From positions 3,953,148-4,017,147 of the forward strand of contig CM055837.1 of NCBI GenBank assembly GCA_029582265.1: DNA of 64,000 bases. Reading direction: 5' to 3'. Origin of the DNA: Zoroaster sp. YZ-2022 (lineage: Eukaryota > Echinodermata > Asteroidea > Forcipulatida > Zoroasteridae). This document shows positions 38,159 to 59,076 of the stretch, piece by piece (within the stretch, counting starts at the first letter, position 1; each line of letters starts with the position of its first letter). The notes beneath the pieces are model-generated. The model made no database searches, was not told the origin of the DNA, and saw nothing but the letters and a program-made list of their open reading frames with translations. The translations under genes were made by a program, and so were the position numbers.

Positions 38159-38231
38159 TACAAGGTAGGGGACTTGAACCCATGACCCTCAGATTAAAAG
38201 TCTGATGCTCTACCGACTGAGCTAACCGGGC
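38159..38231 (-). tRNA. trnK-UUU: tRNA-Lys(TTT), unit 1, edge copy
   Basis: Body and anticodon are intact, but the 3' acceptor strand is replaced by flanking DNA (two mismatches, a G-U pair and a changed discriminator). The array edge falls here; it may be inactive. Confidence 0.65.
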
Positions 38232-38336
38232 TCTGACAACGCATACGGAAGACTTGTCTAAATTGTAAAACCTTAGATCAGCGAAACCACAAGGAAAACT
38301 TCAGACACGTTGATATAACAATGAGCAAAAAACATT

Positions 38337-38409
38337 AGACACCGCTCGGATTCGAACCGGGGATCTCCTGTTTACTAGACAGGCGCTTTGCCAACTAAGC
38401 CACGGCACC
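38337..38409 (-). tRNA. trnT-AGU: tRNA-Thr(AGT), unit 1
   Basis: Anticodon loop CTAGTAA. The acceptor has three wobble pairs and the T stem one mismatch. The same T-stem change occurs in the outlying copy at 58302. Confidence 0.8.
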
Positions 38410-38501
38410 ACACACAACACTTGGCAAGAACTAATAGTCTATTTTGTGAAACTATGACCTGCGAGATTATGAACAATAGTAGAAGTTTTCAAAAAACAAC
38501 T

Positions 38502-38575
38502 AGGCGTCGCCCGGATTCGAACCAGGGATCTCCTGTTTACAAGACAGGCACTTTAACCAACTAAGCCACGACGCC
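38502..38575 (-). tRNA. trnT-UGU: tRNA-Thr(TGT), unit 1
   Basis: Consensus copy. Acceptor GGCGTCG/CGACGCC, anticodon stem CCTGT/ACAGG, loop CTTGTAA, discriminator T, T6 run ten bases downstream. Confidence 0.95.
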
Positions 38576-38648
38576 ATCTCGTACATATTTCATAGTTTGC
38601 TAGACACAGTAGATCTACAAGTTAACAGAAAAGTTAACAAAATAAACA

Positions 38649-38721
38649 CGCCCGGTAGGGGACTTGAACCCATGACCCTCAGATTAAAAGTCTGGTGCTC
38701 TACCGACTGAGCTAACCGGGC
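38649..38721 (-). tRNA. trnK-UUU: tRNA-Lys(TTT), unit 2
   Basis: Acceptor GCCCGGT/ACCGGGC, D stem GCTC/GAGC, loop CTTTTAA, discriminator G. Unique T-to-C at the first anticodon-stem position. As in all Lys copies, the T stem ATGGG/CCCCT has one T-C mismatch. Confidence 0.92.
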
Positions 38722-38825
38722 TCTGACAACGTATACGGAAGACTTGTCTAAATTGTAAAACCTTAGATCAGCGAAACCACAATGAAAACTTCAGACACGT
38801 TGATATAACAATGAGCAAAAAAATT

Positions 38826-38898
38826 AGGCACCGCCCGGATTCGAACCGGGGATCTCCTGTTTACTAGACAGGCGCTTTGCCAACTAAGCCACGGCGCC
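38826..38898 (-). tRNA. trnT-AGU: tRNA-Thr(AGT), unit 2
   Basis: Consensus copy. Acceptor GGCGCCG/CGGTGCC, anticodon stem CCTGT/ACAGG with loop CTAGTAA, T stem CCCGG/CCGGG, discriminator T. Confidence 0.96.
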
Positions 38899-38990
38899 AC
38901 ACACGACATTCGGGAAGAACTAATAATCTATTTTGTGAAACTGTGACCTGCGAGATTATGAACAATAGTACAAGTTTTCAAAAAACAACT

Positions 38991-39064
38991 AGGCGTCGCC
39001 CGGATTCGAACCAGGGATCTCCTGTTTACAAGACAGGCACTTTAACCAACTAAGCCACGACGCC
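38991..39064 (-). tRNA. trnT-UGU: tRNA-Thr(TGT), unit 2
   Basis: Consensus (GCGTC allele). Confidence 0.95.
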
Positions 39065-39137
39065 ATCTTGTACACATTTCATAGTTTGCTAGACACAGTA
39101 GATCTACAAGTTAACAGAAAAGTTAACAAAATAAACA

Positions 39138-39210
39138 CGCCCGATAGGGGACTTGAACCCATGACCCTCAGATTAAAAGTCTGATGCTCTACCGACTGAG
39201 CTAACCGGGC
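39138..39210 (-). tRNA. trnK-UUU: tRNA-Lys(TTT), unit 3
   Basis: One change gives a G-U pair in the acceptor stem (plus-strand CCGATA); otherwise consensus. Confidence 0.92.
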
Positions 39211-39315
39211 TCTGACAACGTATACGGAAGACTTGTCTAAATTGTAAAACCTTAGATCAGCGAAACCACAATGAAAACTTCAGACACGTTGATATAACAA
39301 TGAGCAAAACAAAGT

Positions 39316-39388
39316 AGGCAAAGCTCGGATTCGAACCGGGTATCTCCTGTTTACTAGATAGGCGCTTTGCCAACTAAGCCACGGCGCC
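39316..39388 (-). tRNA. trnT-AGU: tRNA-Thr(AGT), unit 3, diverged
   Basis: CAAAG in the 3' acceptor strand gives two mismatches, and there are extra changes in the T and anticodon arms. Function doubtful. Confidence 0.65.
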
Positions 39389-39479
39389 ACACCCGACATT
39401 TGACAAGAACTAATAGTCTATTTTGTGAAACTATGACCTGCGAGATTATGAACAATAGTACAAGTTTTCAAAAACAACT

Positions 39480-39553
39480 AGGCGTCGCCCGGATTCGAAC
39501 CAGGGATCTCCTGTTTACAAGACAGGCACTTTAACCAACTAAGCCACGACACC
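39480..39553 (-). tRNA. trnT-UGU: tRNA-Thr(TGT), unit 3
   Basis: 5' end GGTGTCG makes a wobble pair in the acceptor; otherwise consensus. Confidence 0.9.
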
Positions 39554-39626
39554 ATCTTGTACACATTTCATAGTTTGCTAGACACAGTAGATCTACAAGT
39601 TAACAGAAAAGTTAACAAAATAAACA

Positions 39627-39699
39627 CGCCCCGTAGGGGACTTGAACCCATGACCCTCAGATTAAAAGTCTGATGCTCTACCGACTGAGCTAACCGGGC
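39627..39699 (-). tRNA. trnK-UUU: tRNA-Lys(TTT), unit 4
   Basis: 3' strand reads GCCCCGTA on the plus strand: one acceptor mismatch. Confidence 0.88.
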
Positions 39700-39804
39700 T
39701 CTGACAACGTATACGGAAGACTTGTCTAAATTGTAAAACCTTAGATCAGCGAAACCACAAGAAAAACTTCAGACACGTTGATATAACAATGAGCAAAAAA
39801 AATT

Positions 39805-39877
39805 AGGCAAAGCCCGGATTCGAACCGGGGATCTCCTGTTTACTAGACAGGCGCTTTGCCAACTAAGCCACGCCGCC
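39805..39877 (-). tRNA. trnT-AGU: tRNA-Thr(AGT), unit 4, diverged
   Basis: CAAAG allele of the 3' acceptor, plus CGCCGCC at the 5' end; the acceptor is weakened. Confidence 0.65.
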
Positions 39878-39977
39878 ACACCGCCACACACGACACTTGG
39901 CAAGAACTAATAGTCTATTTTGTGAAACTATGACCTGCGAGATTATGAACAATAGTAGAAGTTTTCAAAAAACAACT

Positions 39978-40051
39978 AGGCGTCGCCCGGATTCGAACCA
40001 GGGATCTCCTGTTTACAAGACAGGCACTTTAACCAACTAAGCCACGACGCC
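39978..40051 (-). tRNA. trnT-UGU: tRNA-Thr(TGT), unit 4
   Basis: Consensus. Confidence 0.95.
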
Positions 40052-40124
40052 ATCTTGTACACATTTCATAGTTTGCTAGACACAGTAGATCTACAAGTTA
40101 ACAGAAAAGTTAACAAAATAAACA

Positions 40125-40197
40125 CGCCCGGTAGGGGACTTGAACCCATGACCCTCAGATTAAAAGTCTGATGCTCTACCGACTGAGCTAACCGGGC
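40125..40197 (-). tRNA. trnK-UUU: tRNA-Lys(TTT), unit 5
   Basis: Exact array consensus; TTTATTTTG terminator follows. Confidence 0.96.
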
Positions 40198-40302
40198 TCT
40201 GACAACGTATACGGAAGACTTGTCTAAATTGTAAAACCTTAGATCAGCGAAACCACAATGAAAACTTCAGACACGTTGATATAACAATGAGCAAAAAATA
40301 TT

Positions 40303-40375
40303 AGGCACCGCCCGGATTCGAACCGGGTATCTCCTGTTTACTAGACAGGTGCTTTGCCAACTAAGCCACGGCGCC
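40303..40375 (-). tRNA. trnT-AGU: tRNA-Thr(AGT), unit 5
   Basis: Two changes (variable region and D-arm side); all stems still pair. Confidence 0.88.
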
Positions 40376-40467
40376 ACACCCGACATTTGGCAAGAACTAA
40401 TAGTCTATTTTGTGAAACTATGACCTGCGAGATTATGAATAATAGTACAAGTTTTCAAAAAACAACT

Positions 40468-40541
40468 AGGCATCGCCCGGATTCGAACCAGGGATCTCCT
40501 GTTTACAAGACAGGCACTTTAACCAACTAAGCCACGACGCC
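40468..40541 (-). tRNA. trnT-UGU: tRNA-Thr(TGT), unit 5
   Basis: GCATC allele: acceptor pair 4-69 becomes G-U. Otherwise consensus. Confidence 0.94.
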
Positions 40542-40614
40542 ATCTTGTACACATTTCATAGTTTGCTAGACACAGTAGATCTACAAGTTAACAGAAAAGT
40601 TAGAAAAATAAACA

Positions 40615-40687
40615 CGCCCGATAGTGGACTTGAACCCATGACCCTCAGATTAAAAGTCTGATGCTCTACCGACTGAGCTAACCGGGC
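40615..40687 (-). tRNA. trnK-UUU: tRNA-Lys(TTT), unit 6
   Basis: CCGATAGTGG variant: G-U in the acceptor and one T-stem change. Confidence 0.85.
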
Positions 40688-40791
40688 TCTGACAACGTAT
40701 ACGGAAGACTTGTCTAAATTGTAAAACCTTAGATCAGCGAAACCACAATGAAAACTTCAGACACGTTGATATAACAATGAGCAAAGAAATT

Positions 40792-40864
40792 AGGCACCGC
40801 CCGGATTCGAACCGAGGATCTCCTGTTTACTATACAGGCGCTTTGCCAACTAAGCCACGGCGCC
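40792..40864 (-). tRNA. trnT-AGU: tRNA-Thr(AGT), unit 6
   Basis: Position 32 is A instead of C (loop ATAGTAA) and the T stem has a T-G pair. This haplotype recurs in units 11 and 26. Confidence 0.85.
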
Positions 40865-40952
40865 ACATGACATTTGGAAGAACTAATAGTCTATTTTGTG
40901 AAACTATGACCTGCGAGATTATGAACAATAGTATAAGTTTTCAAAAACAACT

Positions 40953-41026
40953 AGGCGTCGCCCGGATTCGAACCAGGGATCTCCTGTTTACAAGACAGGC
41001 ACTTTAACCAACTAAGCCACGACGCC
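40953..41026 (-). tRNA. trnT-UGU: tRNA-Thr(TGT), unit 6
   Basis: Consensus. Confidence 0.95.
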
Positions 41027-41099
41027 ATCTTGTACACATTTCATAGTTTGCTAGACACAGTAGATCTACAAGTTAACAGAAAAGTTAACAAAATAAACA

Positions 41100-41172
41100 C
41101 GCCCCGGGTAGGACTTGAACCCATGACCCTCAGATTAAAAGTCTGATGCTCTACCGACTGAGCTAACCGGGC
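41100..41172 (-). tRNA. trnK-UUU: tRNA-Lys(TTT), unit 7, diverged
   Basis: The 3' strand is shifted (plus GCCCCGGGTAGG), disturbing acceptor and T-stem pairing. Confidence 0.7.
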
Positions 41173-41277
41173 TCTGACAACTTATACGGAAGACTTGTCT
41201 AAATTGTAAAACCTTAGATCAGCGAAACCACAATGAAAACTTCAGACACGTTGATATAACAATGAGCAAAAAATATT

Positions 41278-41350
41278 AGGCACCGCCCGGATTCGAACCG
41301 GGGATCTCCTGTTTACTAGACAGGCGCTTTGCCAACTAAGCCACGGCGCC
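41278..41350 (-). tRNA. trnT-AGU: tRNA-Thr(AGT), unit 7
   Basis: Consensus. Confidence 0.96.
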
Positions 41351-41442
41351 ACACCTGACATTTGGCAAGAACTAATAGTCTATTTTGTGAAACTATGACC
41401 TGCGAGATTATGAATAATAGTACAAATTTTCAAAAAACAACT

Positions 41443-41516
41443 AGGCGTCGCCCGGATTCGAACCAGGGATCTCCTGTTTACAAGACAGGCACTTTAACCA
41501 ACTAAGCCACGACGCC
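41443..41516 (-). tRNA. trnT-UGU: tRNA-Thr(TGT), unit 7
   Basis: Consensus; preceded by the CTTCCACAAATTTC spacer allele. Confidence 0.95.
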
Positions 41517-41589
41517 ATCTTCCACAAATTTCATAGTTTGCTAGACACAGTAGATCTACAAGTTAACAGAAAAGATAACAAAATAAACA

Positions 41590-41662
41590 CGCCCGGTAAA
41601 GGACTTGAACCCATGACCCTCAGATTAAAAGTCTGATGCTCTACCGACTGAGCTAACCGGGC
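41590..41662 (-). tRNA. trnK-UUU: tRNA-Lys(TTT), unit 8
   Basis: GGTAAAGG variant (two T-stem changes), shared with unit 17. Confidence 0.82.
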
Positions 41663-41767
41663 TCTGACAACGTATACGGAAGACTTGTCTAAATTGTAAA
41701 ACCTTAGATCAGCGAAACCACAATGAAAACTTCAGACAAGTTGATATAACAATGAGCAAAAAATATT

Positions 41768-41840
41768 AGGCACCGCCCGGATTCGAACCGGGTATCTTCT
41801 GTTTACTAGACAAGTGCTTTGCCAACTAAGCCACGGCGCC
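41768..41840 (-). tRNA. trnT-AGU: tRNA-Thr(AGT), unit 8, diverged
   Basis: The anticodon stem is CTTGT/ACAGA (one mismatch, one wobble), and there is a further change before the T arm. Confidence 0.7.
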
Positions 41841-41932
41841 ACACCCGGCAATTGGCAAGAACTAATAGTCTATTTTGTGAAACTATGACCTGCGAGATTA
41901 TGAATAATAGTACAAGTTTTCAAAAAACAACT

Positions 41933-42006
41933 AGGCATCGCCCGGATTCGAACCAGGGATCTCCTGTTTACAAGACAGGCACTTTAACCAACTAAGCCAC
42001 GACGCC
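41933..42006 (-). tRNA. trnT-UGU: tRNA-Thr(TGT), unit 8
   Basis: GCATC allele. Confidence 0.94.
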
Positions 42007-42079
42007 ATCTTACACAAATTTCATAGTTTGCTAGACACAGTAGATCTACAAGTTAACAGAAAAGTTAACAAAACAAACA

Positions 42080-42152
42080 CACCCGGTAGGGGACTTGAAC
42101 CCATGACCCTCAGATTAAAAGTCTGATGCTCTACCGACTGAGCTAACCGGGC
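42080..42152 (-). tRNA. trnK-UUU: tRNA-Lys(TTT), unit 9
   Basis: ACCCGG on the plus strand: the terminal pair becomes G-U. Shared with unit 32, together with the AAACAAACAC spacer. Confidence 0.9.
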
Positions 42153-42257
42153 TCTGACAACTTATACGGAAGACTTGTCTAAATTGTAAAACCTTAGATC
42201 AGCGAAACCACAATGAAAACTTCAGACACGTTGATATAACAATGAGCAAAAAATATT

Positions 42258-42329
42258 AGGCACCGCCGGATTCGAACCGAGTATCTCCTGTTTACTAGAC
42301 AGGTGCTTTGCCAACTAAGCCACGGCGCC
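42258..42329 (-). tRNA. trnT-AGU: tRNA-Thr(AGT), unit 9, one-base deletion
   Basis: One C is lost in the T stem/acceptor junction (GCCGG) and the T stem has another change. Probably non-functional. Confidence 0.55.
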
Positions 42330-42421
42330 ACACCCGACATTTGGCAAGAACTAATAGTCTATTTTGTGAAACTATGACCTGCGAGATTATGAATAACAGT
42401 AGAAGTTTTCAAAACACAACT

Positions 42422-42495
42422 AGGCATCGCCCGGATTCGAACCAGGGATCTCCTGTTTACAAGACAGGCACTTTAACCAACTAAGCCACGACGCC
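42422..42495 (-). tRNA. trnT-UGU: tRNA-Thr(TGT), unit 9
   Basis: GCATC allele. Confidence 0.94.
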
Positions 42496-42568
42496 ATCTT
42501 GTACACATTTCATAGTTTGCTAGACACAGTAGATCTACAAGTTAACAGAAAAGTTAACAAAATAAACA

Positions 42569-42641
42569 CGCCCGGTAGGGGACTTGAACCCATGACCCTC
42601 AGATTAAAAGTCTGATGCTCTACCGACTGAGCTAACCGGGC
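42569..42641 (-). tRNA. trnK-UUU: tRNA-Lys(TTT), unit 10
   Basis: Consensus. Confidence 0.96.
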
Positions 42642-42746
42642 TCTGACAACGTATACGGAAGACTTGTCTAAATTGTAAAACCTTAGATCAGCGAAACCAC
42701 AATGAAAACTTCAGACACGTTGATATAACAATGAGCAAAAAATATT

Positions 42747-42819
42747 AGGCACCGCCCGGATTCGAACCGGGGATCTCCTGTTTACTAGACAGGCGCTTTG
42801 CCAACTAAGCCACGGCGCC
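42747..42819 (-). tRNA. trnT-AGU: tRNA-Thr(AGT), unit 10
   Basis: Consensus. Confidence 0.96.
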
Positions 42820-42910
42820 ACACACGACATTTGGAAAGAACTAATAGTCTATTTTGTGAAACTATGACCTGCGAGATTATGAACAATAGTATAAGTTTTC
42901 AAAAACAACT

Positions 42911-42984
42911 AGGCGTCGCCCGGATTCGAACCAGGGATCTCCTGTTTACAAGACAGGCACTTTAACCAACTAAGCCACGACGCC
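42911..42984 (-). tRNA. trnT-UGU: tRNA-Thr(TGT), unit 10
   Basis: Consensus; upstream spacer reads CATATTGTAC instead of CATCTTGTAC. Confidence 0.95.
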
Positions 42985-43057
42985 ATATTGTACACATTTC
43001 ATAGTTTGCTAGACACAGTAGATCTACAAGTTAACAGAAAAGTTAACAAAATAAACA

Positions 43058-43130
43058 CGCCCGGTAGTGGACTTGAACCCATGACCCTCAGATTAAAAGT
43101 CTGATGCTCTACCGACTGAGCTAACCGGGC
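43058..43130 (-). tRNA. trnK-UUU: tRNA-Lys(TTT), unit 11
   Basis: GGTAGTGG variant, one T-stem change as in unit 6. Confidence 0.88.
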
Positions 43131-43234
43131 TCTGACAACGTATACGGAAGACTTGTCTAAATTGTAAAACCTTAGATCAGCGAAACCACAATGAAAACTT
43201 CAGACACGTTGATATAACAATGAGCAAAGAAATT

Positions 43235-43307
43235 AGGCACCGCCCGGATTCGAACCGAGGATCTCATGTTTACTATACAGGCGCTTTGCCAACTAAGCCA
43301 CGTCGCC
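43235..43307 (-). tRNA. trnT-AGU: tRNA-Thr(AGT), unit 11, diverged
   Basis: Unit 6 haplotype plus a TCATG anticodon-stem change and CGTCGCC at the 5' end; two stem mismatches. Confidence 0.65.
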
Positions 43308-43400
43308 ACACCTGACATTTGGCAAGAACTAATAGTCTATTTTGTGAAACTATGACCTGCGAGATTATGAATAATAGTACAAGTTTTCAAAAAAACAATT

Positions 43401-43473
43401 AGACATCGCCCGGATTCGAACCAGTGATCTCCTGTTTACAAGACAGGCACTTTAACCAATAAGCCACGAGGCC
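43401..43473 (-). tRNA. trnT-UGU: tRNA-Thr(TGT), unit 11, degenerate
   Basis: One D-loop base deleted (AACCAATAAG) and changes at both acceptor strands and the T arm. It is the only clearly decayed Thr(TGT) before the gap. Confidence 0.55.
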
Positions 43474-43546
43474 ATCTTGTACACATTACATAGTTTGCTA
43501 GACACAGTAGATCTACAAGTTAACAGAAAAGTTAACAAAATAAACA

Positions 43547-43619
43547 CGCCCGGTAGGGGACTTGAACCCATGACCCTCAGATTAAAAGTCTGATGCTCTA
43601 CCGACTGAGCTAACCGGGC
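43547..43619 (-). tRNA. trnK-UUU: tRNA-Lys(TTT), unit 12
   Basis: Consensus. Confidence 0.96.
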
Positions 43620-43724
43620 TCTGACAACGTATACGGAAGACTTGTCTAAATTGTAAAACCTTAGATCAGCGAAACCACAATGAAAACTTCAGACAAGTTG
43701 ATATAACAATGAGCACACAAGATT

Positions 43725-43797
43725 AGGCACCGCCCGATTTCGAACCAGGGATCTCCTGTTTACTAGACAGGCGCTTTGCCAACTAAGCCACGGCGCC
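43725..43797 (-). tRNA. trnT-AGU: tRNA-Thr(AGT), unit 12
   Basis: T arm altered (GCCCGATTTCGAACCAGGG): one T-stem mismatch and one wobble. Confidence 0.8.
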
Positions 43798-43889
43798 ACA
43801 CCTGACATTTGGCAAGAACTAATAGTCTATTTTGTGAAACTATGACCTGCGAGATTATGAATAATAGTACAAATTTTCAAAAAACAACT

Positions 43890-43963
43890 AGGCGTCGCCC
43901 GGATTCGAACCAGGGATCTCCTGTTTACAAGACAGGCACTTTAACCAACTAAGCCACGACGCC
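43890..43963 (-). tRNA. trnT-UGU: tRNA-Thr(TGT), unit 12
   Basis: Consensus. Confidence 0.95.
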
Positions 43964-44036
43964 ATCTTGTACACATTTCATAGTTTGCTAGACACAGTAG
44001 ATCTACAAGTTAACAGAAAAGTTAACAAAATAAACA

Positions 44037-44109
44037 CGCCCGGTAGGGGACTTGAACCCATGACCCTCAGATTAAAAGTCTGATGCTCTACCGACTGAGC
44101 TAACCGGGC
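44037..44109 (-). tRNA. trnK-UUU: tRNA-Lys(TTT), unit 13
   Basis: Consensus; a MITE lies 58 bp upstream of its 5' end. Confidence 0.96.
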
Positions 44110-44166
44110 TCTGACAACGTGTACGGAAGACTTGTCTAAATTGTAAAACCTTAGATCAGCGAAACC

Positions 44167-44263
44167 ACACCGTCACCGACATCACGAAGTAACACCCGAC
44201 CATGGCCGTATACAGTAAAAAAAAATCAACATGAGTGTTACTTCGTGGTGTCGGTGACGACAC
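44167..44263. mobile_element. Small MITE inside the tRNA array
   Basis: 25-bp terminal inverted repeats (CGTCACCGACATCACGAAGT then AACAC; one mismatch) at 44171-44195 and 44235-44259, with ACAC on both flanks. It lies in the Lys/Thr(AGT) spacer of unit 13 only. Confidence 0.88.
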
Positions 44264-44307
44264 GGAAAACTTCAGACACGTTGATATAACAATGAGCAAA
44301 ACAAATT

Positions 44308-44380
44308 AGGCAAAGACCGGATTCGAACCGGGTATTTCTTGTTTACTAGACAGGTGCTTTGCCAACTAAGCCACAGCGCC
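44308..44380 (-). tRNA. trnT-AGU: tRNA-Thr(AGT), unit 13, diverged
   Basis: CAAAGACCGG, GTATTTCTT and CACAGCGCC changes affect acceptor, T and anticodon arms. It is the gene next to the MITE. Confidence 0.6.
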
Positions 44381-44472
44381 ACACCCGACATTTGGCAAGA
44401 ACTAATAGTCTATTTTGTGAAACTATGACCTGCGAGATTATGAATAATAGTACAAGTTTTCAAAAAACAACT

Positions 44473-44546
44473 AGGCGTCGCCCGGATTCGAACCAGGGAT
44501 CTCCTGTTTACAAGACAGGCACTTTAACCAACTAAGCCACGACGCC
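44473..44546 (-). tRNA. trnT-UGU: tRNA-Thr(TGT), unit 13
   Basis: Consensus. Confidence 0.95.
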
Positions 44547-44619
44547 ATCTTCCACAAATTTCATAGTTTACTAGACACAGTAGATCTACAAGTTAACAGA
44601 AAAGTTAACAAAATAAACA

Positions 44620-44692
44620 CGCCCGGTAGGGGACTTGAACCCATGACCCTCAGATTAAAAGTCTGATGCTCTACCGACTGAGCTAACCGGGC
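44620..44692 (-). tRNA. trnK-UUU: tRNA-Lys(TTT), unit 14
   Basis: Consensus. Confidence 0.96.
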
Positions 44693-44797
44693 TCTGACAA
44701 CGTATACGGAAGACTTGTCTAAATTGTAAAACCTTAGATCAGCGAAACCACAATGAAAACTTCAGACACGTTGATATAACAATGAGCAAAACAAATT

Positions 44798-44870
44798 AGG
44801 CAAAGTCCGGATTCGAACCGGGTATCTCCTGTTTACTAGATAGGCGCTTTGCCAACTAAGCCACGGCGCC
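44798..44870 (-). tRNA. trnT-AGU: tRNA-Thr(AGT), unit 14, diverged
   Basis: CAAAGTCCGG at the 3' side, related to units 3 and 13; acceptor mismatches. Confidence 0.62.
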
Positions 44871-44962
44871 ACACCCGACATTTGACAAGAACTAATAGTC
44901 TATTTTGTGAAACTATGACCTGCGAGATTATGAATAACAGTACAAGTTTTCAAAAAACAACT

Positions 44963-45036
44963 AGGCATCGCCCGGATTCGAACCAGGGATCTCCTGTTTA
45001 CAAGACAGGCACTTTAACCAACTAAGCCACGACGCC
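44963..45036 (-). tRNA. trnT-UGU: tRNA-Thr(TGT), unit 14
   Basis: GCATC allele. Confidence 0.94.
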
Positions 45037-45109
45037 ATCTTGTACACATTTCATAGTTTGCTAGACACAGTAGATCTACAAGTTAACAGAAAAGTTAACA
45101 AAATAAACA

Positions 45110-45182: not shown

Positions 45183-45286
45183 TCTGACAACGTATACGGA
45201 AGACTTGTCTAAATTGTAAAACCTTAGATCAGCGAAACCACAAGTAAAAATTCAGACACGTTGATATAACAATGAGCAAAAAAATT

Positions 45287-49276: not shown

Positions 49277-49368
49277 ACACCTGACATTTGGCAAGAACTA
49301 ATAGTCTATTTTGTGAAACTATGACCTGCGAGATTATGAATAATAGTACAAGTTTTCAAAAAACAACT

Positions 49369-49442
49369 AGGCATCGCCCGGATTCGAACCAGGGATCTCC
49401 TGTTTACAAGACAGGCACTTTAACCAACTAAGCCACGACGCC
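49369..49442 (-). tRNA. trnT-UGU: tRNA-Thr(TGT), unit 23
   Basis: GCATC allele. Confidence 0.94.
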
Positions 49443-49515
49443 ATCTTGTACACATTTCATAGTTTGCTAGACACAGTAGATCTACAAGTTAACAGAAAAG
49501 TTAACAAAATAAACA

Positions 49516-49588
49516 CGCCCGGTAGGGGACTTGAACCCATGACCCTCAGATTAAAAGTCTGATGCTCTACCGACTGAGCTAACCGGGC
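49516..49588 (-). tRNA. trnK-UUU: tRNA-Lys(TTT), unit 24
   Basis: Consensus. Confidence 0.96.
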
Positions 49589-49693
49589 TCTGACAACGTA
49601 TACGGAAGACTTGTCTAAATTGTAAAACCTTAGATCAGCGAAACCACAATGAAAACTTCAGACACGTTGATATAACAATGAGCAAAAAATATT

Positions 49694-49766
49694 AGGCACC
49701 GCCCGGATTCGAACCGGGGATCTCCTGTTTACTAGACAGGCGCTTTGCCAACTAAGCCACGGCGCT
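49694..49766 (-). tRNA. trnT-AGU: tRNA-Thr(AGT), unit 24
   Basis: First base is A instead of G, leaving an A-C terminal pair; otherwise consensus. Confidence 0.85.
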
Positions 49767-49858
49767 ACACCCGACATTTGGAAAGAACTAATAGTCTATT
49801 TTGTGAAACTATGACCTGCGAGATTGTGAATAATAGTACAAGTTTAAAAAAAAAAACT

Positions 49859-49932
49859 AGGCATCGCCCGGATTCGAACCAGGGATCTCCTGTTTACAAG
49901 ACAGGCACTTTAACCAACTAAGCCACGACGCC
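49859..49932 (-). tRNA. trnT-UGU: tRNA-Thr(TGT), unit 24
   Basis: GCATC allele; unusually long T run downstream. Confidence 0.94.
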
Positions 49933-50005
49933 ATCTTGTACACATTTCATAGTTTGCTAGACACAGTAGATCTACAAGTTAACAGAAAAGTTAACAAAAT
50001 AAACA

Positions 50006-50078
50006 CGCCCGGTAGGGGACTTGAACCCATGACCCTCAGATTAAAAGTCTGATGCTCTACCGACTGAGCTAACCGGGC
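50006..50078 (-). tRNA. trnK-UUU: tRNA-Lys(TTT), unit 25
   Basis: Consensus. Confidence 0.96.
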
Positions 50079-50183
50079 TCTGACAACGTATACGGAAGAC
50101 TTGTCTAAATTGTAAAACCTTAGATCAGCGAAACCACAATGAAAACTTCAGACACGTTGATATAACAATGAGCAAAAAATATT

Positions 50184-50255
50184 AGGCACCGCCCGGATTC
50201 GAACAGGGATCTCCTGTTTACTAGACAGGCGCTTTGCCAACTAAGCCACGGCGCC
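50184..50255 (-). tRNA. trnT-AGU: tRNA-Thr(AGT), unit 25, one-base deletion
   Basis: GAACAGGGATC: one base lost before the T arm and a T-stem mismatch. Confidence 0.65.
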
Positions 50256-50346
50256 ACACCGACATTTGGCAAGAACTAATAGTCTATTTTGTGAAACTAT
50301 GACCTGCGAGATTATGAATAATAGTACAAATTTTCAAAAAACAACT

Positions 50347-50420
50347 AGGCGTCGCCCGGATTCGAACCAGGGATCTCCTGTTTACAAGACAGGCACTTTA
50401 ACCAACTAAGCCACGACGCC
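50347..50420 (-). tRNA. trnT-UGU: tRNA-Thr(TGT), unit 25
   Basis: Consensus. Confidence 0.95.
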
Positions 50421-50493
50421 ATCTTGTACACATTTCATAGTTTGCTAGACACAGTAGATCTACAAGTTAACAGAAAAGTTAACAAAATAAACA

Positions 50494-50566
50494 CGCCCGG
50501 TAGGGGACTTGAACCCATGACCCTCAGATTAAAAGTCTGATGCTCTACCGACTGAGCTAACCGGGC
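50494..50566 (-). tRNA. trnK-UUU: tRNA-Lys(TTT), unit 26
   Basis: Consensus. Confidence 0.96.
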
Positions 50567-50670
50567 TCTGACAACGTATACGGAAGACTTGTCTAAATTG
50601 TAAAACCTTAGATCAGCGAAACCACAATGAAAACTTCAGACACGTTGATATAACAATGAGCAAAAAAATT

Positions 50671-50743
50671 AGGCACCGCCCGGATTCGAACCGAGGATCT
50701 CATGTTTACTATACAGGCGCTTTGCCAACTAAGCCACGGCGCC
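50671..50743 (-). tRNA. trnT-AGU: tRNA-Thr(AGT), unit 26
   Basis: Same TCATG/TATACAGG haplotype as unit 11; one anticodon-stem mismatch. Confidence 0.75.
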
Positions 50744-50835
50744 ACACACGACAATTGGGAAAGAACTAATAGTCTATTTTGTGAAACTATGACCTGCGAG
50801 ATTATGAATAATAGTACAAATTTTCAAAAAAAACT

Positions 50836-50909
50836 AGGCGTCGCCCGGATTCGAACCAGGGATCTCCTGTTTACAAGACAGGCACTTTAACCAACTAAGC
50901 CACGACGCC
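50836..50909 (-). tRNA. trnT-UGU: tRNA-Thr(TGT), unit 26
   Basis: Consensus. Confidence 0.95.
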
Positions 50910-50982
50910 ATCTTCCACAAATTTCATAGTTTGCTAGACACAGTAGATCTACAAGTTAACAGAAAAGATAACAAAATAAACA

Positions 50983-51055
50983 CGCCCGGTAGGGGACTTG
51001 AACCCATGACCCTCAGATTAAAAGTCTGATGCTCTACCGACTGAGCTAACCGGGC
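50983..51055 (-). tRNA. trnK-UUU: tRNA-Lys(TTT), unit 27
   Basis: Consensus. Confidence 0.96.
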
Positions 51056-51160
51056 TCTGACAACGTATACGGAAGACTTGTCTAAATTGTAAAACCTTAG
51101 ATCAGCGAAACCACAATGAAAACTTCAGACACGTTGATATAACAATGAGCAAAAAATATT

Positions 51161-51233
51161 AGGCACCGCCCGGATTCGAACCGGGGATCTCCTGTTTACT
51201 AGACAGGCGCTTTGCCAACTAAGCCACGGCGCC
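51161..51233 (-). tRNA. trnT-AGU: tRNA-Thr(AGT), unit 27
   Basis: Consensus. Confidence 0.96.
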
Positions 51234-51325
51234 ACACCTGACATTTGGCAAGAACTAATAGTCTATTTTGTGAAACTATGACCTGCGAGATTATGAATAA
51301 TAGTACAAATTTTCAAAAAACAACT

Positions 51326-51399
51326 AGGCGTCGCCCGGATTCGAACCAGGGATCTCCTGTTTACAAGACAGGCACTTTAACCAACTAAGCCACGACGCC
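51326..51399 (-). tRNA. trnT-UGU: tRNA-Thr(TGT), unit 27
   Basis: Consensus. Confidence 0.95.
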
Positions 51400-51472
51400 A
51401 TCTTCCACAAATTTCATAGTTTGCTAGACACAGTAGATCTACAAGTTAACAGAAAAGATAACAAAATAAACA

Positions 51473-51545
51473 CGCCCGGTAGGGGACTTGAACCCATGAC
51501 CCTCAGATTAAAAGTCTGATGCTCTACCGACTGAGCTAACCGGGC
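51473..51545 (-). tRNA. trnK-UUU: tRNA-Lys(TTT), unit 28
   Basis: Consensus. Confidence 0.96.
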
Positions 51546-51649
51546 TCTGACAACGTATACGGAAGACTTGTCTAAATTGTAAACCTTAGATCAGCGAAAC
51601 CACAATGAAAACTTCAGACAAGTTGATATAACAATGAGCAAAAAATATT

Positions 51650-51722
51650 AGGCACCGCCCGGATTCGAACCGGGGATCTCCTGTTTACTAGACAGGCGCT
51701 TTGCCAACTAAGCCACGGCGCC
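51650..51722 (-). tRNA. trnT-AGU: tRNA-Thr(AGT), unit 28
   Basis: Consensus; flanking spacers carry AGACAAGTTG and GAGATGATG, both repeated in unit 31. Confidence 0.96.
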
Positions 51723-51814
51723 ACACACGACATTTGGAAAGAACTAATAGTCTATTTTGTGAAACTATGACCTGCGAGATGATGAATAATAGTACAAATT
51801 TTCAAAAAACAACT

Positions 51815-51888
51815 AGGCGTCGCCCGGATTCGAACCAGGGATCTCCTGTTTACAAGACAGGCACTTTAACCAACTAAGCCACGACGCC
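51815..51888 (-). tRNA. trnT-UGU: tRNA-Thr(TGT), unit 28
   Basis: Consensus. Confidence 0.95.
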
Positions 51889-51963
51889 ATCTTACACAAA
51901 TTTCATAGTTTGCTAGACACAGTAGATCTACAAGTTAACAGAAAAGTTAACAAAACAAACACG

Positions 51964-52032
51964 CGCCCGATGGACTTGAACCCATGACCTCAGATTAAAA
52001 GTCTGATGCTCTACCGACTGAGCTAACCGGGC
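51964..52032 (-). pseudogene. tRNA-Lys(TTT) pseudogene, unit 29
   Basis: Four bases are missing in the T arm and variable region (GCCCGATGGACTTG, GACCTCAG), so the T stem cannot form. Anticodon arm intact. Confidence 0.8.
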
Positions 52033-52137
52033 TCTGACAACGTATACGGAATACTTGTCTAAATTGTAAAACCTTAGATCAGCGAAACCACAATGAAAAC
52101 TTCAGACACGTTGATATAACAATGAGCAAAAAATATT

Positions 52138-52210
52138 AGGCACCGCCCGGATTCGAACCGGGGATCTCCTGTTTACTAGACAGGCGCTTTGCCAACTAAG
52201 CCACGGCGCC
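52138..52210 (-). tRNA. trnT-AGU: tRNA-Thr(AGT), unit 29
   Basis: Consensus. Confidence 0.96.
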
Positions 52211-52302
52211 ACACACGACAATTGGAAAGAACTAATAGTCTATTTTGTGAAACTATGACCTGCGAGATTATGAATAATAGTACAAATTTTCAAAAAACAA
52301 CT

Positions 52303-52376
52303 AGGCGTCGCCCGGATTCGAACCAGGGATCTCCTGTTTACAAGACAGGCACTTTAACCAACTAAGCCACGACGCC
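52303..52376 (-). tRNA. trnT-UGU: tRNA-Thr(TGT), unit 29
   Basis: Consensus. Confidence 0.95.
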
Positions 52377-52449
52377 ATCTTGTACACATTTCATAGTTTG
52401 CTAGACACAGTAGATCTACAAGTTAACAGAAAAGTTAACAAAATAAACA

Positions 52450-52522
52450 CGCCCGATAGGGGACTTGAACCCATGACCCTCAGATTAAAAGTCTGATGCT
52501 CTACCGACTGAGCTAACCGGGC
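52450..52522 (-). tRNA. trnK-UUU: tRNA-Lys(TTT), unit 30
   Basis: CCGATA variant (G-U pair in the acceptor). Confidence 0.92.
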
Positions 52523-52627
52523 TCTGACAACGTATACGGAAGACTTGTCTAAATTGTAAAACCTTAGATCAGCGAAACCACAATGAAAACTTCAGACACG
52601 TTGATATAACAATGAGCAAAAAATATT

Positions 52628-52700
52628 AGGCACCGCCCGGATTCGAACCGGGGATCTCCTGTTTACTAGACAGGCGCTTTGCCAACTAAGCCACGGCGCC
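52628..52700 (-). tRNA. trnT-AGU: tRNA-Thr(AGT), unit 30
   Basis: Consensus. Confidence 0.96.
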
Positions 52701-52792
52701 ACACACGACAATTGGAAAGAACTAATAGTCTATTTTGTGAAACTATGACCTGCGAGATTATGAATAATAGTACAAATTTTCAAAAAACAACT

Positions 52793-52866
52793 AGGCGTCG
52801 CCCGGATTCGAACCAGGGATCTCCTGTTTACAAGACAGGCACTTTAACCAACTAAGCCACGACGCC
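52793..52866 (-). tRNA. trnT-UGU: tRNA-Thr(TGT), unit 30
   Basis: Consensus. Confidence 0.95.
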
Positions 52867-52939
52867 ATCTTACACAAATTTCATAGTTTGCTAGACACAG
52901 TAGATCTACAAGTTAACAGAAAAGTTAACAAAATAAACA

Positions 52940-53012
52940 CGCCCGGTAGGGGACTTGAACCCATGACCCTCAGATTAAAAGTCTGATGCTCTACCGACTG
53001 AGCTAACCGGGC
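52940..53012 (-). tRNA. trnK-UUU: tRNA-Lys(TTT), unit 31
   Basis: Consensus; upstream spacer has the rare GGAATACTTG seen also at unit 29. Confidence 0.96.
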
Positions 53013-53117
53013 TCTGACAACGTATACGGAATACTTGTCTAAATTGTAAAACCTTAGATCAGCGAAACCACAATGAAAACTTCAGACAAGTTGATATAAC
53101 AATGAGCAAAAAATATT

Positions 53118-53190
53118 AGGCACCGCCCGGATTCGAACCGGGGATCTCCTGTTTACTAGACAGGCGCTTTGCCAACTAAGCCACGGCGCC
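53118..53190 (-). tRNA. trnT-AGU: tRNA-Thr(AGT), unit 31
   Basis: Consensus; same flanking spacer variants as unit 28. Confidence 0.96.
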
Positions 53191-53282
53191 ACACACGACA
53201 TTTGGAAAGAACTAATAGTCTATTTTGTGAAACTATGACCTGCGAGATGATGAATAATAGTACAAATTTTCAAAAAACAACT

Positions 53283-53356
53283 AGGCGTCGCCCGGATTCG
53301 AACCAGGGATCTCCTGTTTACAAGACAGGCACTTTAACCAACTAAGCCACGACGCC
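53283..53356 (-). tRNA. trnT-UGU: tRNA-Thr(TGT), unit 31
   Basis: Consensus. Confidence 0.95.
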
Positions 53357-53429
53357 ATCTTACACAAATTTCATAGTTTGCTAGACACAGTAGATCTACA
53401 AGTTAACAGAAAAGTTAACAAAACAAACA

Positions 53430-53502
53430 CACCCGGTAGGGGACTTGAACCCATGACCCTCAGATTAAAAGTCTGATGCTCTACCGACTGAGCTAACCGG
53501 GC
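53430..53502 (-). tRNA. trnK-UUU: tRNA-Lys(TTT), unit 32
   Basis: ACCCGG variant, identical to unit 9, including the AAACAAACAC and AACTTATACGG spacers. Confidence 0.9.
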
Positions 53503-53607
53503 TCTGACAACTTATACGGAAGACTTGTCTAAATTGTAAAACCTTAGATCAGCGAAACCACAATGAAAACTTCAGACACGTTGATATAACAATGAGCAAA
53601 AAATATT

Positions 53608-53680
53608 AGGCACCGCCCGGATTCGAACCGGGGATCTCCTGTTTACTAGACAGGCGCTTTGCCAACTAAGCCACGGCGCC
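53608..53680 (-). tRNA. trnT-AGU: tRNA-Thr(AGT), unit 32
   Basis: Consensus. Confidence 0.96.
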
Positions 53681-53771
53681 ACACACGACAATTGGAAAGA
53701 ACTAATAGTCTATTTTGTGAAACTATGACCTGCGAGATTATGAATAATAGTACAAATTTTCAAAAAAAACT

Positions 53772-53845
53772 AGGCGTCGCCCGGATTCGAACCAGGGATC
53801 TCCTGTTTACAAGACAGGCACTTTAACCAACTAAGCCACGACGCC
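53772..53845 (-). tRNA. trnT-UGU: tRNA-Thr(TGT), unit 32
   Basis: Consensus. Confidence 0.95.
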
Positions 53846-53918
53846 ATCTTCCACAAATTTCATAGTTTGCTAGACACAGTAGATCTACAAGTTAACAGAA
53901 AAGTTAACAAAATAAACA

Positions 53919-53991
53919 CGCCCGGTAGGGGACTTGAACCCATGACCCTCAGATTAAAAGTCTGATGCTCTACCGACTGAGCTAACCGGGC
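53919..53991 (-). tRNA. trnK-UUU: tRNA-Lys(TTT), unit 33
   Basis: Consensus. Confidence 0.96.
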
Positions 53992-54096
53992 TCTGACAAC
54001 GTATACGGAAGACTTGTCTAAATTGTAAAACCTTAGATCAGCGAAACCACAATGAAAACTTCAGACACGTTGATATAACAATGAGCAAAAAATATT

Positions 54097-54169
54097 AGGC
54101 ACCGCCCGGATTCGAACCGGGGATCTCCTGTTTACTAGACAGGCGCTTTGCCAACTAAGCCACGGCGCC
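54097..54169 (-). tRNA. trnT-AGU: tRNA-Thr(AGT), unit 33
   Basis: Consensus. Confidence 0.96.
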
Positions 54170-54261
54170 ACACCTGACATTTGGCAAGAACTAATAGTCT
54201 ATTTTGTGAAACTATGACCTGCGAGATTATGAATAACAGTACAAGTTTTCAAAAAACAACT

Positions 54262-54335
54262 AGGCATCGCCCGGATTCGAACCAGGGATCTCCTGTTTAC
54301 AAGACAGGCACTTTAACCAACTAAGCCACGACGCC
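54262..54335 (-). tRNA. trnT-UGU: tRNA-Thr(TGT), unit 33
   Basis: GCATC allele. Confidence 0.94.
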
Positions 54336-54408
54336 ATCTTGTACACATTTCATAGTTTGCTAGACACAGTAGATCTACAAGTTAACAGAAAAGTTAACAA
54401 AATAAACA

Positions 54409-54481
54409 CGCCCGGTAGGGGACTTGAACCCATGACCCTCAGATTAAAAGTCTGATGCTCTACCGACTGAGCTAACCGGGC
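54409..54481 (-). tRNA. trnK-UUU: tRNA-Lys(TTT), unit 34
   Basis: Consensus. Confidence 0.96.
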
Positions 54482-54586
54482 TCTGACAACGTATACGGAA
54501 GACTTGTCTAAATTGTAAAACCTTAGATCAGCGAAACCACAATGAAAACTTCAGACACGTTGATATAACAATGAGCAAAAAATATT

Positions 54587-54659
54587 AGGCACCGGCCGGA
54601 TTCGAACCGGGGATCTCCTGTTTACTAGACAGGCGCCTTGCCAACTAAGCCACGGCGCC
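54587..54659 (-). tRNA. trnT-AGU: tRNA-Thr(AGT), unit 34
   Basis: CACCGGCCGG and GCGCCTT variants, identical to unit 16 about 8.8 kb away. Confidence 0.82.
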
Positions 54660-54751
54660 ACACACGACAATTGGAAAGAACTAATAGTCTATTTTGTGAA
54701 ACTATGACCTGCGAGATTATGAATAATAGTACAAATTTTCAAAAAACAACT

Positions 54752-54825
54752 AGGCGTCGCCCGGATTCGAACCAGGGATCTCCTGTTTACAAGACAGGCA
54801 CTTTAACCAACTAAGCCACGACGCC
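54752..54825 (-). tRNA. trnT-UGU: tRNA-Thr(TGT), unit 34
   Basis: Consensus. Confidence 0.95.
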
Positions 54826-54898
54826 ATCTTCCACAAATTTCATAGTTTGCTAGACACAGTAGATCTACAAGTTAACAGAAAAGATAACAAAATAAACA

Positions 54899-54971
54899 CG
54901 CCCGGTAGGGGACTTGAACCCATGACCCTCAGATTAAAAGTCTGATGCTCTACCGACTGAGCTAACCGGGC
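54899..54971 (-). tRNA. trnK-UUU: tRNA-Lys(TTT), unit 35
   Basis: Consensus. Confidence 0.96.
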
Positions 54972-55076
54972 TCTGACAACGTATACGGAAGACTTGTCTA
55001 AATTGTAAAACCTTAGATCAGCGAAACCACAATGAAAACTTCAGACACGTTGATATAACAATGAGCAAAAAATATT

Positions 55077-55144
55077 AGGCACCGCCCGGATTCGAACCGG
55101 GGATCTCCTGTTTACTAGACAGGCGCTTTGCCAACTAAGCCACC
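55077..55144 (-). pseudogene. tRNA-Thr(AGT) with truncated 5' end, unit 35
   Basis: The 5' acceptor strand has lost five bases (AAGCCACCACAC), so the acceptor stem cannot form. It lies 90 bp from the assembly gap, so an assembly error is possible. Confidence 0.75.
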
Positions 55145-55234
55145 ACACACGACATTTGGAAAGAACTAATAGTCTATTTTGTGAAACTATGACCTGCGAG
55201 ATTATGAATAATAGTACAAATTTTCAAAAAACAA

Positions 55235-55734
55235 NNNNNNNNNNNNNNNNNNNNNNNNNNNNNNNNNNNNNNNNNNNNNNNNNNNNNNNNNNNNNNNNNN
55301 NNNNNNNNNNNNNNNNNNNNNNNNNNNNNNNNNNNNNNNNNNNNNNNNNNNNNNNNNNNNNNNNNNNNNNNNNNNNNNNNNNNNNNNNNNNNNNNNNNNN
55401 NNNNNNNNNNNNNNNNNNNNNNNNNNNNNNNNNNNNNNNNNNNNNNNNNNNNNNNNNNNNNNNNNNNNNNNNNNNNNNNNNNNNNNNNNNNNNNNNNNNN
55501 NNNNNNNNNNNNNNNNNNNNNNNNNNNNNNNNNNNNNNNNNNNNNNNNNNNNNNNNNNNNNNNNNNNNNNNNNNNNNNNNNNNNNNNNNNNNNNNNNNNN
55601 NNNNNNNNNNNNNNNNNNNNNNNNNNNNNNNNNNNNNNNNNNNNNNNNNNNNNNNNNNNNNNNNNNNNNNNNNNNNNNNNNNNNNNNNNNNNNNNNNNNN
55701 NNNNNNNNNNNNNNNNNNNNNNNNNNNNNNNNNN
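55235..55734. other. Assembly gap, exactly 500 N
   Basis: Inside the tRNA array, between a unit-35 spacer and the middle of a Thr(TGT) gene. A round 500 suggests an unsized gap, so the true number of units may be larger. Confidence 0.97.
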
Positions 55735-55788
55735 CCAGGGATCTCCTGTTTACAAAACAGGCACTTTAACCAACTAAGCCACGGCGCC
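55735..55788 (-). tRNA. trnT-UGU: tRNA-Thr(TGT), partial at gap
   Basis: 5' part with anticodon loop TTTGTAA (C32 to T) and 5' end GGCGCCG; the 3' part is hidden in the gap. Confidence 0.8.
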
Positions 55789-55861
55789 ATCTTGTACACA
55801 TTTCATAGTTTGCTAGACACAGTAGATCTACAAGTTAACAGAAAAGTTAACAAAATAAACA

Positions 55862-55933
55862 CGCCCGGTAATGGACTTGAACCCATGACCCTCAGATTAA
55901 AAGTCTGATGCTCTACCGACTAGCTAACCGGGC
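55862..55933 (-). tRNA. trnK-UUU: tRNA-Lys(TTT), unit 36, D-arm deletion
   Basis: One base lost next to the D stem (GACTAGC for GACTGAGC), plus a GGTAATGG T-arm variant. Confidence 0.65.
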
Positions 55934-56039
55934 TCTGACAACGTATACGGAAGACTTGTCTAAATTGTAAAACCTTAGATCAGCGAAACCACAATGAAAA
56001 CTTCAGACACGTTGATATAACAGTGAGCAAAAAAAATTA

Positions 56040-56093
56040 CGCACCGCCCGGATTCGAACTAAACAGGCGCTTTGCCAACTAAGCCACGGCGCC
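56040..56093 (-). pseudogene. tRNA-Thr(AGT) pseudogene, unit 36
   Basis: About 18 bases including half of the anticodon arm are deleted (GATTCGAACTAAACAGG). Ends are recognisable. Confidence 0.85.
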
Positions 56094-56186
56094 ACACCTG
56101 ACATTTGGCAAGAACTAATAGTCTATTTTGTGAAACTATGACCTGCGAGATTATGAATAGTATTACAAGTTTTCAAAAAAACAACT

Positions 56187-56236
56187 TGGCATCGCCCGGA
56201 TTCGAACCAGGGATCTCCTGTTTACAAGACAGGCAC
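56187..56236 (-). pseudogene. tRNA-Thr(TGT) 3' fragment at the array's right edge
   Basis: GCATC allele with intact T and anticodon arms. The match stops after AGACAGGCAC; the D arm and 5' acceptor are replaced by unique DNA. Confidence 0.85.

Positions 56237-59071: not shown

Positions 59072-59076
<5 letters not shown>

Follow-up and report, generated by a model that had tools for sequence, protein, structure and literature searches.

Tandem tRNA gene clusters and the Zoroaster locus

Tandem units of tRNA genes are familiar from the tDNA (tRNA gene) repeats of Xenopus, and in Entamoeba many isotypes lie in tandem arrays. A 2010 survey reported that large tRNA gene clusters arose independently many times (PMC2888827; articles are cited by PubMed Central (PMC) number, and statements resting on them follow passages of each article). 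The closest system described is the Ser-Tyr-Tyr (SYY) cluster on chromosome 1 of Arabidopsis thaliana, in which a mixed unit of three genes is repeated in tandem (PMC12308677). Here we describe a tandem array of Thr(TGT), Thr(AGT) and Lys(TTT) tRNA genes in the starfish Zoroaster sp. YZ-2022 (assembly GCA_029582265.1; 1,001,958,528 bases in 616 scaffolds), located on the minus strand at 38159-56236 of a 64,000-nucleotide stretch, C22:3953148-4017147 (the window; positions without a prefix refer to it). We consider it fairly probable that this is a homogenised array of RNA polymerase III (Pol III) genes, organised like ribosomal DNA (rDNA), under selection for its products, transcribed now or recently, and part of the main reservoir of genes for these tRNAs. 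The Thr-Thr-Lys arrays of this genome, together with a separate Cys array, contrast with the many isotypes arrayed in Entamoeba.

The likeness to SYY extends beyond the mixed trio. Arrayed and dispersed gene classes occur side by side in both systems, and one gene position retains the major sequence more often (Y2, approximately 80%, in Arabidopsis; TGT as compared with AGT in the starfish) (PMC12308677). The two differ in kingdom and in amino acids. Furthermore, Arabidopsis has 16 dispersed Tyr genes, while every Thr(TGT) pattern match in the starfish falls within the arrays, and SYY is methylated, mostly silent and active in root cap cells (PMC12308677). The starfish array has a ratio of observed to expected CpG (CpG o/e) of 0.98, with 0.88 in its consensus spacers. 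Among animals, the human tDNA variable number tandem repeat (VNTR) at 1q23.3 is likewise a homogeneous tandem repeat of several tRNA genes, with units approximately 98% identical, but its 7.3-kb GC-rich unit carries a CTCF site and consists of tRNA genes to less than 6% (PMC4041453); the repeat unit of the starfish array, at 490 bp and GC 0.43, is not of this kilobase GC-rich kind. Zebrafish chromosome 4 holds 5227 clustered tRNA genes in clusters that are mixed like the starfish array, but of much greater extent and, in early embryos, almost fully methylated at CpG (PMC11574265). The 2010 survey also includes the tandem tRNA units of Entamoeba, a likeness to the starfish, and illustrates a vertebrate cluster, its species unstated in the legend, that pairs Arg(TCT) with Thr(AGT or TGT) (PMC2888827).

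For the starfish Asterias amurensis, 6,779 or 14,926 tRNA genes have been reported (PMC11090083, PMC10625585), their arrangement being unstated in the passages of these two articles. Among the top-ranked matches in the open-licence PMC literature we found no starfish or echinoderm tRNA arrays and no Thr-Lys arrays, and the word tRNA is absent from the main text of the article describing the Zoroaster assembly (PMC10394057). An earlier reading of the locus from its sequence alone (the sequence-only reading) had called both the trio and the copy number unusual, which is half right, since mixed tandem trios are known from Arabidopsis (PMC12308677). Tandem tRNA arrays as such are thus already known; what the literature consulted did not offer elsewhere is the starfish host, the Thr-Thr-Lys trio, the scarcity of dispersed copies, and two arrays that serve as a natural control for each other.

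Structure of the array

ARAGORN predicted 107 tRNA genes in the window, every one on the minus strand, and the Rfam tRNA model likewise gave 107 matches exceeding its gathering score. All but two of these genes (105/107; 36 Lys TTT, 35 Thr AGT and 34 Thr TGT) lie inside 38159-56236, the remaining 2/107 being a Thr(AGT) and a Lys(TTT) gene at 58302-58546. Tandem Repeats Finder (TRF) returned a repeat unit of 489-490 bp, and a search with parts of the unit located each segment in 36-38 window copies, broken edge copies and a detached piece counted. Along the minus strand, which is the direction of transcription, the gene order is Thr(TGT)-Thr(AGT)-Lys(TTT), and the 490-bp unit has 43% GC and is 45% tRNA gene. 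These data describe an array of approximately 35-36 units; the approximately 36 units and 108 genes of the sequence-only reading prove correct to within a few, as does its unit of approximately 490 bp with three minus-strand genes. It should be noted that the unit count is a property of the assembly, because a gap of 500 N (55235-55734) lies inside the array, with array sequence at both flanking contig ends.

The short units run head to tail with their tRNA genes less than 1 kb apart, and the genes carry internal A and B boxes (located by sequence, from box definitions in general knowledge) and their own terminators, as in tandem tRNA gene clusters. A run of at least four T within 25 nt of the 3' end follows 34/34 TGT, 33/36 AGT and 36/37 Lys genes of the window. 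The terminator that had been proposed after each gene is therefore present after nearly all of them (103/107), and also after 169/171 genes called with these anticodons in the sister array on C10, a count that excludes six genes with unclear anticodon and one Leu.

Sister arrays and genome-wide census

The window array has relatives. At C10:37269278-37311794, approximately 89 units of the same trio run on the minus strand and are then inverted near 37308700, in a contig with N gaps at either end; some ten partial units, lying in both orientations, are found at C1:39439414-39443479; and a looser Thr/Lys group occupies C22:2532371-2560057, approximately 1.4 Mb from the window array. A lower-bound search with the unit at 46506-46995, in which very frequent words are passed over, listed near-full unit matches only on C1 and C10; the main C22 array itself is not among the matches listed.

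Gene copies were counted by sequence patterns, as a DNA search with a single Thr(AGT) gene was swamped by array copies. The exact Thr anticodon arm occurs at 133 places in the assembly (60 in the window, 63 on C10, 7 on C1 and 3 elsewhere), which puts 130/133 within the C22, C10 and C1 arrays, and the exact Lys(TTT) anticodon arm occurs at 109 (33, 67, 1 and 8, respectively), with 101/109 in the arrays. The C10 figures of 63 and 67 were obtained by subtraction, 100/133 and 100/109 matches being listed and the other 33 and 9 matching in number the copies that remained for the window. A looser Thr(TGT) pattern, listed in full for the assembly, gave 53 matches (35 on C22, 16 on C10, 2 on C1 and 0 elsewhere). 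Three diverged Thr(TGT) genes, two on C4 near 2078676 and one at C22:2559173, were missed by the patterns, and because such genes escape them the arrays are not proven to be the sole source of Thr(TGT). In addition, a Thr(AGT) tRNA carrying inosine could decode ACA as well.

The proposal that the bulk of these gene copies is held in arrays is thus supported at the level of exact patterns (Thr 130/133, Lys 101/109, Thr(TGT) 53/53). Most isoacceptor copies counted by pattern are inside arrays, but the window array is neither the only one nor the largest, being exceeded by C10. As part of the favoured explanation as a whole, and with the same fair degree of confidence, we regard the arrays together as the principal store of tRNA-Thr(UGU) and tRNA-Lys(UUU) genes, and as holding most pattern-matching copies of Thr(AGU).

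Homogenisation and the C10 dimer

In a tree of the units, those of C22 are monophyletic (support 1.0), and mean distances are 0.030 within C22, 0.056 within C10 and 0.160 between the two. For C22, copies in the same array are therefore more alike than copies in different arrays, the pattern of concerted evolution, while the units of C10 and C1 do not separate in the tree, 2/3 C1 units falling inside C10.

The C10 array is built from long and short units that have lost different Thr genes. Long units keep AGT and have a decayed TGT (A box changed, anticodon stem broken); short units keep TGT, and an internal deletion in their AGT has taken out the anticodon loop along with some of the B box. 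The two types alternate, with 58/80 neighbours differing (null 40, standard deviation 4.4), and among 84 minus-strand C10 units 34 have TGT only, 36 AGT only, 8 both and 6 neither, Lys being callable in 75. Because the Thr losses are complementary and Lys is kept in both halves, the typical C10 dimer holds one gene per Thr type and two Lys. Between the unit types, the decayed TGT differs at 9/74 sites, the 16-base flanks of the Thr genes at 7/32, other spacer (here including the segment flanking Lys) at 7/227 and Lys at 0/73. We reject many independent events as the origin of the complementary losses, which are explained by a dimer amplified after two losses, as the alternation indicates. Judging from these layouts, one dimer was probably amplified, and the loss events were thus few; a Fisher value on the complementary losses accordingly counts copies, not events.

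Constraint on the genes between arrays

Two homogenised arrays with diverged spacers, one of them with a pseudogene at the same position, provide an internal test within one genome, and this setting separates selection on the product from selection on the promoter boxes. The consensus of 33 C22 units (the intervals between 34 TGT genes) was aligned with that of 81 C10 units (81/82 intervals kept by a length filter, minus-strand part only), the C10 consensus TGT being taken from short units and AGT and Lys from long units. The intact genes differ at only 3/219 sites (TGT 2/74, AGT 1/72, Lys 0/73), compared with 60/265 in the spacers of the C22 and C10 long-unit consensus (Fisher 5e-14), and outside the A and B boxes gene sites still differ at only 3/150 (Fisher 5e-10). 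The decayed TGT of C10 long units, in contrast, differs from C22 at 11/74 sites and is spacer-like (P 0.20 against spacer).

Both TGT changes form one acceptor pair (linear 4:70). Among the 33 C22 TGT genes this pair is G-C in 22, G-T in 10 and C-G in 1, whereas it is A-T in 36/36 C10 short units. From the pairing, this is a compensatory change whose wobble state is still present, and such a change, with its wobble step, argues that the RNA product is what selection keeps. Variation within the arrays partly follows the same line. In C10 long units, nucleotide diversity (pi, plain values) is 0.025 in the intact AGT and 0.027 in Lys, versus 0.035-0.080 in the three spacers and 0.054 in the decayed TGT; in C22, TGT has 5 distinct changes in 74 sites versus 55 in 270 for spacer, and is the only gene plainly below it.

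We propose that a founder trio of Pol III genes would have been amplified head to tail, with uniformity within each array presumably kept by unequal exchange or conversion. The C22 and C10 arrays would then have evolved apart until their consensus spacers differed by approximately 20%, while selection would have kept the consensus Thr(UGU), Thr(AGU) and Lys(UUU) genes, dosage perhaps being the selected property. Each gene would be transcribed from internal A and B boxes of its own, with termination at the T-run that follows it. Such transcription, now or recent and probably including the germline, is suggested by the mutation pattern, the conserved genes and the terminators.

Cloverleaf pairing

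Most genes had been thought to have an intact cloverleaf. Among normal-length window genes (1 TGT, 4 AGT and 2 Lys of odd length left out), the stems are fully paired in 33/33 TGT and 19/32 AGT, which upholds this for the Thr genes, but in only 1/35 Lys, where it fails. The other 34/35 Lys genes all carry a mismatch at T-stem pair 50-64, and 7 of them have further mismatches in other places. Among normal-length Lys(TTT) genes the same mismatch is found in C10 (75/75), C18 (3/3) and C7 (1/1), while the pair is intact in both C19 genes (2/2). That the mismatch makes the array Lys a pseudogene was ruled out, since the dispersed Lys(TTT) genes of C18 and C7 share it and the gene is unchanged (0/73) between C22 and C10. 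Pair 50-64 contacts EF1A, and a recurrent mismatch at this single pair may be meaningful.

Variability of the 5' flanks

Pooled over genes, the 16 bases 5' of the genes are the most variable part of the spacer. In C22, positions -16 to -1 have pi 0.087 versus 0.020 in other spacer (circular-shift P 0.015; variable sites 16/48 versus 30/222), and C10 short-unit flanks have 0.054 versus 0.018 (P 0.022). The unrelated Cys array on C20 gives 0.266 versus 0.09-0.10 over 31/37 intervals; a poly-A run closes its 5' flank and can raise the apparent variation. Between C22 and C10, identity is 0.40-0.53 at -1 to -15, whereas the 5-base bins between -16 and -60 show 0.67-1.00. Raised mutation in the immediate flanks of tRNA genes has been ascribed to transcription-associated mutagenesis (PMC8113476, citing Thornlow 2018), and the hypervariable flanks seen here are a hint of transcription, including in the germline.

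Alternative explanations

The most serious alternative, which we consider unlikely, is a mostly silent, decaying satellite: recombination would have spread the array, which would lie in heterochromatin as Arabidopsis SYY does in most tissues, and the gene conservation would be a relic of past function or a product of conversion. A number of observations weigh against a transcribed array under product selection, and several of them suit a silent one. Within C22, Thr(AGT) has 35 changes in 73 sites, exceeding the spacer, Lys has 13 in 73, not below it, and the circular-shift P is only 0.13 for TGT and 0.07 for AGT. In C10, alternate Thr genes are pseudogenes, short-unit gene bodies are no less variable than spacers, all stems are paired in only 12/38 normal-length TGT genes, so that most carry a stem mismatch, and pair 50-64 is mismatched in 39/39 normal-length Thr(AGT) genes; of the two arrays, C22 appears the less decayed. 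An appearance of constraint could arise from gene-body conversion between the arrays, and the plant and fish precedents are heavily methylated.

The flank signal is subject to similar objections. It is weak before C22 Lys (pi 0.017), reaches only P 0.16 in C10 long units (0.086 versus 0.045) and is missing before their AGT (0.061 versus 0.046, with 0.059 further up), yet short units show it ahead of their deleted AGT (0.036 versus 0.009) and long units ahead of the decayed TGT (0.163 versus 0.131); moreover, the 16-base window was picked after inspection of the data. Since flanks of decayed or deleted Thr genes are also hypervariable, this feature is weakened as firm evidence of transcription, and because the signal does not track intact genes we have lowered our confidence in a transcribed array, and in the stronger reading given under Implications, and raised it in a silent satellite. 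The signal may date from transcription that preceded the losses, or may be an edge effect arising in conversion or in polishing; polishing alone is disfavoured as the source of the flank variants, because flank haplotypes are common to many units. A silent satellite is, however, at odds with genes conserved across arrays whose spacers differ by approximately 20% when the pseudogene is not, with the compensatory stem change in TGT, and with a CpG content that shows no depletion (o/e 0.98 over the array and 0.88 in consensus spacers), the window flanks standing at 0.60 and 0.82. We continue to favour a homogenised array kept for its tRNA products.

Much less probable is an array whose main role is that of a chromatin boundary or a barrier to replication, set up by binding of TFIIIC and TFIIIB, with tRNA output incidental. 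Barrier activity of tDNA has been described in other species (PMC4041453), and the array offers numerous boxes in a single orientation, but conservation extends over the 150 sites outside the boxes, which binding of TFIIIC alone would not predict, and includes the compensatory acceptor-stem change. The retention on C10 of Lys in both dimer halves and of one gene per Thr type also reads as a choice of products.

We find it equally hard to credit that the pattern is an artefact of assembly or polishing, in which wtdbg2 inflated or collapsed copies and the flank and AGT variants came from short reads of other tRNA loci during polishing. The article on Zoroaster cf. ophiactis reports an assembly of 1,002.0 Mb in 616 scaffolds, with 22 chromosomes whose sizes run from 22.2 to 107.2 Mb; it was made by wtdbg2 assembly of Nanopore reads, Illumina polishing and 3D-DNA scaffolding (PMC10394057), which counts in favour of an artefact. 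N gaps lie in or at both large arrays, and the C10 array occupies nearly its whole contig, so that its placement depends on Hi-C. One error does not, however, explain two arrays that differ in spacers and unit layout, plus an inversion; the flank variants form haplotypes in many units; and the left junction of the C22 array shares a contig with unique sequence. Finally, origin as a short interspersed element (SINE) was rejected, as each unit has three genes with conserved bodies, and the features that mark SINEs, abundant dispersed copies and a body and tail unrelated to tRNA, were not found, the lower-bound search having listed near-full unit matches only on C1 and C10.

Variant units and window surroundings

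The array begins on the left at 38159, within a Lys gene, and ends on the right at 56236, within a Thr(TGT) gene. A typical near-consensus unit on the minus strand spans 46507-46995 (TGT 46922-46995, AGT 46758-46830, Lys 46580-46652), while the unit at 43964-44546 (minus strand) measures 583 bp owing to an insertion of approximately 90 bp in the AGT-Lys spacer. In the C22 AGT genes (38159-55234), the excess of changes is larger than expected from relaxed selection by itself. To the right of the N gap, 55735-56236 is an array remnant on the minus strand with genes rearranged or truncated, and a detached partial unit at 58228-58546, also on the minus strand, comprises Thr(AGT) 58302-58374 and Lys(TTT) 58474-58546, with a fragment of Lys at the low end.

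The interval from the array to the detached unit contains an 81-bp unit repeated approximately 9.6 times (57102-57875, TRF), which is open on both strands over approximately 260-280 codons. TRF also found a 23-bp unit repeated 27 times at 504-1124 and an (ATT)125 microsatellite at 7616-7991. None of five flanking open reading frames (ORFs) matched a Pfam family. A flanking ORF of 336 aa has three relatives, one in Asterias rubens (50%), one in Patiria miniata (48%) and a third, at 51% but covering 30% of the query, in the brittle star Amphiura filiformis. A 397-aa ORF at 59181-60374, without a Pfam match, resembles by eye a retroelement reverse transcriptase; it is enclosed by a perfect 139-nt inverted repeat (arms 59072-59210 and 60630-60768, whole span 59072-60768).

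Other tRNA gene groups occur in the same genome. The Cys array at C20:4637287-4644150 comprises 38 tandem tRNA-Cys genes at approximately 155-bp spacing, many of them with variants, and may begin before the stretch examined. At C19:6411001-6421000 and 6421001-6431000, tRNA-Asn(GTT) genes with an intron of approximately 15 nt are called when ARAGORN allows introns, and adjoin Lys(TTT) genes; if real, introns in the Asn tRNA genes of an animal are, to our knowledge, unusual. Six Lys(CTT) genes lie within 1 kb at C4:43120150-43121200, and two Ile(AAT)-like tRNA genes at C20:19710450-19711050 fall within a stretch of approximately 5 kb with more related matches; these two groups are further small tRNA arrays.

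Implications

A stronger reading, which we offer only tentatively and hold to be doubtful as it stands, is that Thr(UGU) is supplied solely and Lys(UUU) nearly solely by the arrays, which would act as an rDNA-like organiser whose copy number tunes the decoding of ACA and AAA, perhaps in the egg or early embryo, with C10 shifting Thr(UGU):Thr(AGU):Lys to 1:1:2 from the 1:1:1 of C22. If true, the complementary loss on C10 would represent an array-level route to altered tRNA stoichiometry. The scarcity of dispersed copies would ease the interpretation of tRNA sequencing, as few dispersed genes could be confused with array transcripts, and the system bears on why some eukaryotes hold hundreds of near-identical tRNA genes in arrays.

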